Shown here in pieces: positions 2,995-23,086 of a stretch of DNA of 23,516 nucleotides. Source of the DNA: a virus; IMG/VR virus record IMGVR_UViG_3300046011_003271, positions 1-23,516 of that record; one strand, written 5' to 3'. Below the pieces are notes generated by a model. It did not search any database. It saw only the letters and a program-made list of their open reading frames with translations, and had not been told where the DNA came from. Position numbers and translations under genes: made by a program. The first letter of the stretch is position 1; the number at the start of each line of letters is the position of its first letter.

Positions 2995-5042
2995 TGGCCT
3001 CAAGCCAGACAATACTAAAAATATCAAAGGAATCGCAAGCAGCTCTGGTATCCTATATGTGGAATATTAGGACTAGGTGGACTTATTTTTATACCATTAG
3101 GCAGGTACTTGAGTCTGCTGATAGAGAATATTATCGGGAGAATAACAGAGGAGAAGAGCATCAGCGTGCCCGCCTTGCTAATAACTTAGGTGATGCTAGC
3201 CGCTTCCAGGATGTTACGGTGCCAATAGTAGCTGATCAAGTAGACTCTTGGACAGCATTTATGACTGAAGTATTCTGCTCACAGACTCCTATATTCCCAG
3301 TAGTAGCACCACCTAAGTATGCTGATGCTGCCTTACAGATGAATGCGCTATTAGATAAGCAAGCGCGCAAAGGTCGTTGGAAATCTGAGCTGATAAAGTT
3401 CTTCCGTGACTGCGGCAAATATGGTCTTGGTGCCTGTGAGGTATCATGGACTAAAGCTAATACCGCTCTCATCGAAACTGATCTCAAATTCAGTAGCAAG
3501 GAAGGTAAGCCTAGGAATATCATTTGGGAAGGTAATAGCATTAAGCGCCTCGACCTCTATAATACATTTTGGGATACCACAGTATTGCCACAAGATGTAG
3601 CCACTAAAGGTGAGTATGCAGGCTACCATGAGCTAGTATCCAGGAATCGCATTAAGCAGATAATAGCGGAACTTGGTGAGGATGCCATTATCCCTAATAT
3701 CAATGCTGCCCTTAATTCTGGCACTATGCTTACTGAATACTATGTGCCACAAGTGAATCCAGAAGCTCTTACTGCTGTGCAGTCACTAACACAAGGTATG
3801 GATTGGTTCTCTTGGGCAGGACTGCAGAATAATAGCGGGATAGCTTATAAGGGCCTATATATCATTACCACCTTGTATGCCCGTATCCTTCCTGCTGATT
3901 TCGGTATTCAGGCGCCACAACCTAATACTCCTCAAGTATGGAAATTCCTAATAGTCAATTTTAGCACTATCATTTATATTGAGCGCCAAACTAATGCTCA
4001 TGAGATGATACCAGTGCTATTTGCTTGCCCCAATGATGATGGCATTAAGTATCAAACTAAGTCATTAGCAGCAAATATGAAGCCATTCCAACAGGTGGCA
4101 TCTGCTCTTATGAACTCAGTAATGGCTTCAAGACGTAGAGCTATTAGTGATAAAGGCTTATTCAATCCTCTTTATGTGGATGAAAAGAATATTAATAGTA
4201 AGAATCCTACTGCTAAGATTCCTATTAAGCCTGCTGCCTATCAAGGTGTGCCTCTTAATGAAATCTACTGGCCAATACCATTTAGTGATGACCAAGCCAG
4301 TATCAGCTTGCAAGAGACTCAGTTAATAGGACAGATGGCGGACCAACTTGCAGGCCAGAATAAAGCGCAAAGAGGTCAGTTCCAGAAAGGTAACAAGACT
4401 CTTAGTGAATACCAGGATGTAATGTCTAATGCTGATAGCAAGCCTAAGTCAGCAGCTATTGTGCTTGAAGATCAGTTCTTCACCCCAGCTAAGCACATTC
4501 TTGGTATCAATATCATGCAATACCAAGGTAATGAATCCCTCTATTATGCTGATACTGATAACGAGGTGATTGTTGACCCGCTAATGCTGAGACAAGCTGT
4601 GTGGGAATTCAAGATTACTGATGGTGCTATCCCAGCTAATACTGAGATGCATGCGGATGTGTGGCAGACAGCGTTGCAAATCATAGGCAGTAGCCAGCAA
4701 TTGCAATCAGGTTATAATGTAGCTGGTCTTTTCTCCTATATGATTAAGTTGCAAGGTGCTGACATTAAGGAATTCGAGAAACCTAAAGAGCAACTTATGT
4801 TCGAGCAAGCTCAAATGCAATGGCAAGCAACAGTAGCCCAGATAGTGAAAGCTAATCCGCAAGCCTCTGCACAGCAATTTCCTCCTCAACCAGTACCTGC
4901 TGACTATGGTCTTAATCCTGATGGCACTGTTGCTGACAAGTCTGGTGAGCAAGAGGAGAAGCAAGAGAGTCTGATACAGCAGATTATGGAAGCTGGTATG
5001 CCAGGAGGTGAGCAGCCACAAGAGCAGCAGGAGCCAATGTGA
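2994..5042 (+). CDS. Portal (head-tail connector) protein
   Basis: At 682 aa this has the size of podovirus portals and sits directly after the terminase. Portals form the dodecameric ring at one vertex through which DNA enters and leaves. Sequence features that fit: an alpha-helical N-terminus with many aromatic and basic residues (about 15-60), a wing of mixed alpha/beta sequence with 'GLGACEVSW' (about 142-150), a long helical region with many small residues (about 360-380), and a Gln/Glu/Pro-rich helical C-terminal barrel (about 595-682). Start: ATG 2994 with AGGAGA at 2983-2988. The last codon (ATG) directly precedes TGA, and the downstream gene starts by overlapping this stop. The call rests on length, order and composition together. 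Confidence 0.82.
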   Translation: MASSQTILKISKESQAALVSYMWNIRTRWTYFYTIRQVLESADREYYRENNRGEEHQRARLANNLGDASRFQDVTVPIVADQVDSWTAFMTEVFCSQTPIFPVVAPPKYADAALQMNALLDKQARKGRWKSELIKFFRDCGKYGLGACEVSWTKANTALIETDLKFSSKEGKPRNIIWEGNSIKRLDLYNTFWDTTVLPQDVATKGEYAGYHELVSRNRIKQIIAELGEDAIIPNINAALNSGTMLTEYYVPQVNPEALTAVQSLTQGMDWFSWAGLQNNSGIAYKGLYIITTLYARILPADFGIQAPQPNTPQVWKFLIVNFSTIIYIERQTNAHEMIPVLFACPNDDGIKYQTKSLAANMKPFQQVASALMNSVMASRRRAISDKGLFNPLYVDEKNINSKNPTAKIPIKPAAYQGVPLNEIYWPIPFSDDQASISLQETQLIGQMADQLAGQNKAQRGQFQKGNKTLSEYQDVMSNADSKPKSAAIVLEDQFFTPAKHILGINIMQYQGNESLYYADTDNEVIVDPLMLRQAVWEFKITDGAIPANTEMHADVWQTALQIIGSSQQLQSGYNVAGLFSYMIKLQGADIKEFEKPKEQLMFEQAQMQWQATVAQIVKANPQASAQQFPPQPVPADYGLNPDGTVADKSGEQEEKQESLIQQIMEAGMPGGEQPQEQQEPM

Positions 5043-5242
5043 AAAAGCAAAGTAGTAGTGCCAAGCATAATGCTGATAAAGCCTATAACCTTGGATACAA
5101 AGCTGCTACTAACGGGGAGCCAATAACCTCTAATCCTTTTGTGACTGAGAGAGTTATTGGCTTACATAAGTGGTGGGAGAAAGGTTGGCATGAAGCTGAT
5201 AGCGGTTATGTTGATGAGACATTAGAATCAGGGCCAGACTGA
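5039..5242 (+). CDS. RMF/CrpP-like small protein
   Basis: The 67-aa product has the pattern of the ribosome modulation factor/CrpP family: a lysine-rich N-terminus, then an A-x3-GY-x-A-x2-NG segment (about 15-26), an NPF segment (about 32-34), and a closing W-x2-GW-x2-A segment (about 46-53). Cellular RMF drives 100S ribosome dimer formation in stationary phase; small phage and plasmid relatives are of uncertain role. Translation starts at GTG 5039, overlapping the portal stop codon, with AGGAG at 5029-5033, so it is coupled to portal synthesis. I see the motif spacing; any effect on ribosomes is inference. Confidence 0.6.
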   Translation: MKKQSSSAKHNADKAYNLGYKAATNGEPITSNPFVTERVIGLHKWWEKGWHEADSGYVDETLESGPD

Positions 5243-5253
5243 GTGGGAGCGAA

Positions 5254-5425
5254 AAAACCCGACCTTGACCCGAAACGCCAAAGCCGGCCTAGGCACCGAT
5301 GTCAATGGCAGCCCGGAGAAAAACTAATAATGCGAGCGTAGCGAAGCATGGTTTTTCGAGGACTGAGCGTAGCGTCCATTGATAGCGGATGCCGGCAGGC
5401 GTTATAGTATTTCGGGTCGGGTTTT
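5254..5425 (+). repeat. Giant imperfect hairpin element (about 172 nt)
   Basis: A non-coding stretch folds almost end to end on itself. Paired arms, outside to inside: 5254-5264 AAAACCCGACC with 5415-5425; alternatively or nested 5269-5275 CCCGAAA with 5410-5416; 5283-5288 GCCGGC with 5391-5396; 5302-5308 TCAATGG with 5376-5382; 5318-5324 GAAAAAC with 5351-5357; 5330-5333 ATGC with 5346-5349. The segments occur in the same nested order on both sides, separated by unpaired bulges. G+C by hand count is about 54% against about 43% in a nearby coding line. It lies after the RMF-like gene and before the zinc-ribbon gene. It may be a structured RNA, an RNase III processing site, or a MITE-like insertion with inverted ends. 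It encodes no credible protein. Confidence 0.7.
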
Positions 5426-5469
5426 GAATGAAGGCTGGCAATAAAATAATAGTAACAGAGTGAGCAATA

Positions 5470-5637
5470 ATGATACTATATAGCGTAGAGACATTAACCC
5501 ACTTCAGGTGCACTGTGTGTAATAAGTGGTGGACTATAGGTGATTGGAAACCATTACATAACATGACTTGTCCTCATTGTGGTTTTATTCACACTCAATT
5601 TAATAAAGCGAGTAAGATTGATGCAGATACAGATTAA
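5470..5637 (+). CDS. Small zinc-ribbon protein
   Basis: A 55-aa frame from ATG 5470 to TAA 5635-5637 carries two Cys pairs, C14-x2-C17 and C34-x2-C37 (the latter in CPHCG), separated by 16 residues containing a Trp pair. This is a classic zinc-ribbon arrangement. Such mini-proteins are frequent in phages and may bind nucleic acid or protein. A weak purine-rich stretch (GAGTGAG, 5458-5464) lies upstream. Its end overlaps the next gene by 17 nt. The four Cys are the main evidence that the frame is real; its partner is unknown. Confidence 0.65.
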   Translation: MILYSVETLTHFRCTVCNKWWTIGDWKPLHNMTCPHCGFIHTQFNKASKIDADTD

Positions 5638-23050: not shown

Positions 23051-23086
23051 GTCCTAGCTGGTATCAGTACTGGCTAGGACTTTTTT
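23051..23086 (+). terminator. Intrinsic terminator of the late operon
   Basis: GTCCTAGC (23051-23058) pairs with GCTAGGAC (23073-23080), extended inward by five pairs including two G-U wobbles, around a 4-nt loop TCAG (23064-23067). Six T follow at once (23081-23086). The stem is strong and the T run is on the plus-strand side only, so it ends the late transcript. It lies 42 nt after the giant ejection-protein gene and before the convergent minus-strand genes. Confidence 0.9.

Follow-up and report, generated by a model that had tools for sequence, protein, structure and literature searches.

Giant intergenic hairpins of podoviruses: a structurally conserved family with a tip that recurs in single-stranded DNA phages and plasmids

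The hairpin and its neighbourhood

What does a giant hairpin do in the gap between two genes of a podovirus, and is it a peculiarity of one genome? The question is raised by the window, that is, the whole stretch of 23 516 nucleotides analyzed here (IMG/VR record IMGVR_UViG_3300046011_003271), in which positions 5254–5425 of the plus strand form a giant imperfect hairpin. A preliminary description, made from the sequence alone, had proposed a nested hairpin at this site, and its arms are indeed present, including 5254–5264/5415–5425 (11 of 11 positions complementary), 5267–5275/5410–5418 (9 of 9) and 5296–5308/5376–5388; helices with a mean pairing probability of at least 0.6 can be traced from the base at 5254/5425 up to the tip at 5338–5340 (within 5336–5342). 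In the outer stem, 5254–5260 on the 5′ arm pairs with 5419–5425 on the 3′ arm (mean pair probability 0.80), the 11-nucleotide pairing being an alternative register. The predicted RNA fold of 5243–5470 has an energy of −77.1 kcal/mol compared with −61.9 ± 4.4 kcal/mol for dinucleotide shuffles (z −3.45), none of the 200 shuffles being as good; the antisense strand of the same segment reaches −66.3 (z −2.96). The hairpin is thus confirmed as real, and the claims on its composition and coding capacity hold as well: the G+C content, put at about 54%, is 53.5% in the hairpin compared with 42.9% in the whole window, and the longest sense ORF across the hairpin encodes only 32 aa, consistent with a non-coding element, with a 91-aa ORF overlapping it on the antisense strand. 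Both copies of the motif GAGCGNAGCG in the 23.5-kb window, where 0.04 are expected, fall within the hairpin. A search of Rfam, at gathering and relaxed thresholds, yielded no match to the hairpin or its family above the curated cut-off, and BLASTN with the window hairpin against phages and plasmids gave no match.

The element is intergenic, as originally described, but it is not directly flanked by portal and capsid genes: the upstream neighbour (5039–5242) encodes a homolog of ribosome modulation factor (Pfam PF04957, E 1e-9), and the downstream one (5470–5637, plus strand) is a 55-aa ORF for a CxxC..CPxC zinc-ribbon protein. The phage-encoded ribosome modulation factor homolog sits in the head-gene operon; the contigs L002 and L003 have one too. 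The hairpin is identical in two IMG/VR contigs (L004 and L039) and is missing, jointly with the zinc-ribbon gene, from L002 and L003 (98.7% identical to the window across the portal stretch and about 85% identical, respectively), so that the two are gained or lost together as a segment of about 395 nucleotides, the ends of which do not match those of the hairpin. Absence from close relatives had been named in advance as evidence against the element, and L002 and L003 indeed lack it, but divergent podoviruses hold giant hairpins of the same plan; because the wider search places the element in a structurally conserved family, it is not noise.

At the end of the late operon, the window has a canonical intrinsic terminator (23051–23080, a 13-pair stem and TTTTTT) at a convergent junction; in other genomes, this junction is a slot that holds giant hairpins. 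The 956-aa gene at the convergent junction of the genome G020 matches phrog_16165, as does the giant virion protein of the window.

A structurally conserved family in podoviruses

A motif scan of IMG/VR, from which chance and coding matches were removed by stem complementarity (pattern matches in L064, L145, L174, L175 and L284 were dropped as coding or chance), returned hairpins of one plan. In all, about 30 elements were found, a single genome having one to four; they occupy seven or more intergenic slots: TerS/TerL, TerL/portal, before the portal, portal/next gene, after the capsid, in the early region and at the convergent end of the late and early operons. Nearly all members lie in the podovirus family of the window, and in one genome, G041, a related portal was not found; more distant relatives have other giant hairpins in other gaps, likewise with GAGCGNAGCG. 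The covariance model R1 detects four copies each in G020 and G045 and two each in G042 and G041. The same four slots are kept in G020 and G045, and the copies within a genome are 63–78% alike, no more than the copies of G020 are to those of G045, so that nothing points to a recent burst.

The members share a series of ordered blocks, namely, YTGACCG, after 40 nt AGGNNCC, then GUCAA NNN, an apical GAGCGNAGCG, NNN UUGA and, after another 15–19 nt, TAAGCT. The blocks GUCAA and UUGA, and GAGCGNAGCG in the case of a few members added late, served to find the family, whereas YTGACCG and UAAGCU played no part in the search; most copies that have YTGACCG have it 39–41 nt upstream of GUCAA. The three bases after GUCAA are variable and complementary to the three bases before UUGA. 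In 24 sequences, the window being excluded, the resulting 7-pair P4 helix has 88% paired cells and a covariation of 0.439 compared with 0.142 after shuffling (0 of 500 shuffles as high), with a sharp drop when the columns are slid by one. The preliminary description had proposed a test for compensatory substitutions in relatives, and in P4 such covarying pairs are found across the family. The structural conservation of this previously unlisted hairpin family is, accordingly, well shown.

Many relatives have no recognisable copy, the cultured relatives Tiera and EBPR podovirus 3 gave no match, and neither a search of 299 Pseudomonadota genomes with model R1 (run without a positive control) nor an exact-pattern search of genome contigs found any. 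L034 has a possible second, divergent hairpin with GAAGCGAAGCGAG at 3200–3465, between the small and large terminase genes; the giant hairpin in the portal/next-gene slot of L224 (8676–8930; also in L227 and L245) contains no GAGCGNAGCG and is perhaps a degenerate or an unrelated element; and a weak model match (E 0.0013) with GTCAAGGGC..GAGCGAAGCGTCCCTTGAT is found at 401–491 of L282, a 107-kb contig of another kind. In L008, a gap (450–760) has a nearly perfect inverted repeat of 24 bp as well as a second hairpin that is very strong; their sequences are unrelated to the family. The portal gene of G043 (L097, 25091–27115) has one in-frame TAG, possibly a case of recoding or a sequencing error.

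Model R1 does not find the window hairpin itself, model R2, built without the window, gives 5277–5416 as the best match in the window with an E-value of 0.066 (0.53 for the next one), and a two-block membership score is not significant (33 of 200 nulls). A five-block score trained without the window is 35.7 at the hairpin, compared with a mean of 23.7 and a maximum of 32.7 in simulated windows (0 of 150 as high), a maximum of 29.6 in ten relatives or other phages that lack the element and 22.1 at the next-best locus of the window, although this test is not fully blind because the apical motif entered the score after being seen in the window. With the window excluded from the model, the hairpin has the ordered blocks and the P4 pairing of the GUCAA..GAGCGNAGCG..UUGA family. 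These are, all on the plus strand, TTGACC (5265–5270, the counterpart of YTGACCG, here 36 nt before GTCAA), AGGCACC (5291–5297, the counterpart of AGGNNCC, which in the family is just 5′ of GTCAA), the P4 strands TGTCAATGG (5300–5308) and CCATTGATA (5376–5384), which pair with a probability of 0.96, and the apical GCGAGCGTAGCGAAGC (5332–5347). Next to the 3′ strand of P4, the block CTGAGCGTAGCGTCC (5363–5377; CTGAG..CGNAGCG) is common to the window, L034, L035 and L053. The window hairpin is a divergent member of the family.

The tip in other replicons and the promoter-like hexamers

Microviridae and plasmids also carry the 31-nt tip, GTCAAGGCCGAAGAGCGNAGCGTGCCTTGAC, and an inovirus has a related one. 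BLASTN with the L201 element retrieves three records only at E ≤ 0.01, all of them Microviridae; the 31-nt consensus tip has four matches with E < 0.01 in the phage collection, again all in Microviridae; and every match with E < 0.05 to the L201 element, to the tip query and to a microvirus query in this collection comes from a single-stranded (ss) DNA phage, either a member of the Microviridae or an inovirus. The Microviridae that carry the tip are KP087951, MW202568, MG945841 and ON840024, and the related form is found in the microvirus PQ006566 and the inovirus PQ006165. Among the plasmids, 82 records match the tip, the better ones being unannotated at the site, with hosts that are mostly Rhizobiales but also include Methylobacterium, Nocardia and Rhodococcus. 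Four of the seven plasmid sites inspected are located beside rep or relaxase genes: the tip lies 190 nt after rep in pYS1, between parA and mobC-traA in two rhizobial plasmids and between the gene for the type IV secretion system coupling protein and mobQ in one plasmid. The arms that flank the tip differ among the ssDNA phages and plasmids, and most are again long and self-complementary. Passage through ssDNA is a feature of the Microviridae and the inovirus among the carriers, and the distribution of the tip suggests a signal that starts RNA or DNA synthesis on ssDNA. Two observations count against such a reading, namely, that rep and relaxase genes are lacking for about 2 kb around the other three plasmid sites, and that in MW202568 and PQ006566, the motif is on the strand opposite to the genes, not on the presumed virion strand.

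On the 3′ arm, promoter-like hexamers are found. The pair is perfect in the microvirus PQ006566 (TTGACA-17-TATAAT, 12 of 12), reads TTTACA-15-TATACT in the inovirus PQ006165 and, in the window (5379–5408), consists of TTGATA (5379–5384) and TATAGT (5403–5408) separated by 18 nt (10 of 12). All 25 podovirus elements have a −10-like hexamer with A2 and T6 at 15–19 nt after the hexamer in the TTGA position, the spacing having been searched over five values, and TTGA-N15-19-TAnnnT is present in nearly all of them. TAAGCT or a near form is absent in four (the window, L034, L035 and L210), with A2 and T6 kept; the TAAGCT copies are homologous, and therefore, the 25 elements are not independent events. 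Counting against an ssDNA promoter are the prevalence of TAAGCT, which agrees with the −10 consensus in only three of the six positions (most podovirus copies score 6–8 of 12 for the pair), and several plasmid and Microviridae sites in which no good −35/−10 pair is found where expected. The apical region, in turn, resembles CS-6 of plasmid single-strand origins, TAGCGA/T (PMC10378824): the window has TAGCGA at 5339–5344 and TAGCGT at 5370–5375, and the family form is NAGCG(T/A), with a variable first base.

In all 25 elements, the fold of the motif strand is better than that of the complementary strand, with RNA as well as with DNA parameters. When corrected for composition (RNA parameters), the difference favours the motif strand in 23 of 25, with a mean z of −1.5, and is nil (−0.1) for the window. 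This preference fits a function of the motif strand, either as RNA or as ssDNA.

Possible functions of the hairpin

The preliminary description left several functions open, among which the replication signal fares best, specifically as a hairpin that acts as a promoter or primes synthesis on ssDNA, given the recurrence of the tip in ssDNA phages and plasmids and the promoter-like hexamers on the 3′ arm; the mechanism is one that we infer. In Frpo and ssi elements, ssDNA forms a secondary structure with −35 and −10 sequences that imitates a double-stranded promoter and is recognised by the host RNA polymerase (PMC11541004). In the reading favoured here, which has a probability of about one half, the element would act on single-stranded or extruded DNA as a promoter or a priming site, in the manner of Frpo, ssi and sso; the grounds are the Frpo-like architecture, the CS-6-like tip, the relatives in replicons that pass through ssDNA and a neighbouring rep or relaxase gene at four of the seven plasmid sites. 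When single-stranded or extruded, the motif strand would form a long duplex with imperfections, and the 3′ arm of this duplex would present the −35-like hexamer (TTGA..) near the conserved, CS-6-like NAGCG(T/A) tip and the −10-like hexamer (TAnnnT) 15–19 nt beyond the first hexamer, where the stem is poorly paired. The host RNA polymerase could load at these hexamers and make RNA with the 5′ arm and the 5′ flank as template, and the product could be either a primer for the complementary strand or an early transcript. Recognition by RNA polymerase and priming are presumed, and so are long single-stranded intermediates in the podoviruses that carry the element, which are double-stranded (ds) DNA phages, a fact that counts against an ssDNA promoter.

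A close parallel is with Frpo/ssi of conjugative plasmids (Masai and Arai 1997; PMC11541004), which are likewise long imperfect hairpins of one DNA strand and strand-specific, with −35/−10 sequences in the stem where the present family has promoter-like hexamers, the element studied here being also close to oriT-type genes in some plasmids. It differs in the mostly TAAGCT −10, the distinct conserved tip, the presence in dsDNA podoviruses and the multiple intergenic slots, and the likeness to Frpo/sso is one of architecture and a hexamer. The ssoA-type single-strand origins (PMC10378824) share the hairpin with an apical TAGCGA/T and a position after rep as in pYS1, but in the present family, the hexamer is variable at its first position (NAGCG) and a promoter-like pair is on the 3′ arm. 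If the ssDNA promoter reading holds, the element is a further form of the known ssDNA promoter hairpins.

A cis-acting structured RNA in the polycistronic late mRNAs, where it would mark an intergenic boundary that protects or processes the mRNA (an RNase III site or an exonuclease barrier) and sets the stoichiometry of head-gene products, is the main rival; it appears less likely but accounts for several observations. The late-operon elements (TerS/TerL, TerL/portal, portal/next gene and after the capsid) are all on the sense strand, which a DNA-level site would not need, many of them end shortly before the ribosome-binding site of the next gene, the sense strand outfolds the antisense one and the helices covary. 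Evidence against this option, which the preliminary description had raised, comes from the remaining slots: in an early slot common to G020 and G045, the element lies antisense to the adjacent genes, and the convergent copies in these two genomes are beyond the operon terminator. A structured RNA also leaves unexplained the promoter-like hexamers and is hard to reconcile with a tip common to plasmids and ssDNA phages, partly beside rep or relaxase genes.

It is improbable that the hairpins are non-autonomous mobile palindromes (MITE- or REP-like) in which selection acts on the hairpin ends only. Mobility would agree with the change of slots between genomes, with the presence or absence of the hairpin and the zinc-ribbon gene in phages about 98.7% identical in the portal region, and with the occurrence in unrelated replicons and in G041; the mismatch between the ends of the window indel and those of the hairpin and the four slots kept between G020 and G045 are contrary to it. 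A linked Y1 transposase, the hallmark of REP/RAYT systems, was not found, whereas control genomes gave matches, and 11 contigs contained neither a Y1 transposase nor a reverse transcriptase; a recent MITE burst, one of the initial suggestions, is unlikely because of this and because the copies within a genome are only about 63–78% alike. REP/BIME sequences are dispersed extragenic palindromes too, but the present elements are about 200 nt long, occur in one to four copies and have no RAYT gene that could be found.

It is quite improbable that the elements are normal internal sigma70 promoters of dsDNA that have a stable arm upstream, or cassettes that combine a promoter and a terminator in the manner of the T4 PeSLs. 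The near-universal hexamer pair and the 10 of 12 site of the window are what such promoters predict, but sites of this quality arise by chance elsewhere in 9 kb, the convergent and early copies would drive antisense RNA, and conserved P3/P4 pairing would not be needed. A cassette with a terminator would require a U-run after the stem, which most elements lack (the longest T-run is at most 4 in 23 of 25, and 4 in the window). The PeSLs of T4-type phages (Arbiol 2010 and Comeau 2014, as cited in PMC4503421) are described as intergenic, with several per genome, and as combining a promoter with a stem-loop and being tied to gene gain and loss; they differ from the present elements, in which the promoter-like pair is inside a hairpin arm, the terminator U-run is usually missing, the size is much larger and the structure is conserved. 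A role in head packaging, as an RNA or as a hairpin at the packaging site, is hardly credible: many copies are indeed located among terminase, portal and capsid genes, and phi29 pRNA, too, is structured, about 170 nt long and from a podovirus, but copies are found in early and convergent regions and in plasmids as well, recognisable copies are missing in many relatives and the terminase matches a TerL family, and the dedicated phi29-type pRNA initially mentioned is unlikely because there are up to four slots per genome, on both strands, and non-phage replicons are involved too. The promoters of N4-type virion polymerases are hairpins with similar tips; this reading was set aside, the 1657-aa virion protein having neither a PDB match nor an informative family.

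More broadly, but more tentatively than the function of the podovirus element itself, one hairpin family with a tip of about 31 nt and a promoter on the 3′ arm may start RNA or DNA synthesis on ssDNA in ssDNA phages, rolling-circle or conjugative plasmids and dsDNA podoviruses. Were this the case, these podoviruses would have either a single-stranded stage or extruded-hairpin promoters in their head-gene operons, and a shared hairpin signal, read by the host and overlooked by annotation pipelines, would connect dsDNA podoviruses to ssDNA phages and transferable plasmids. With the family as a model, ssDNA promoters could then be searched for outside enterobacteria, and the replication or expression of these podophages through ssDNA would become testable. 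If the element acts as RNA instead, it would represent a widespread family of structured podovirus RNAs that is absent from Rfam.
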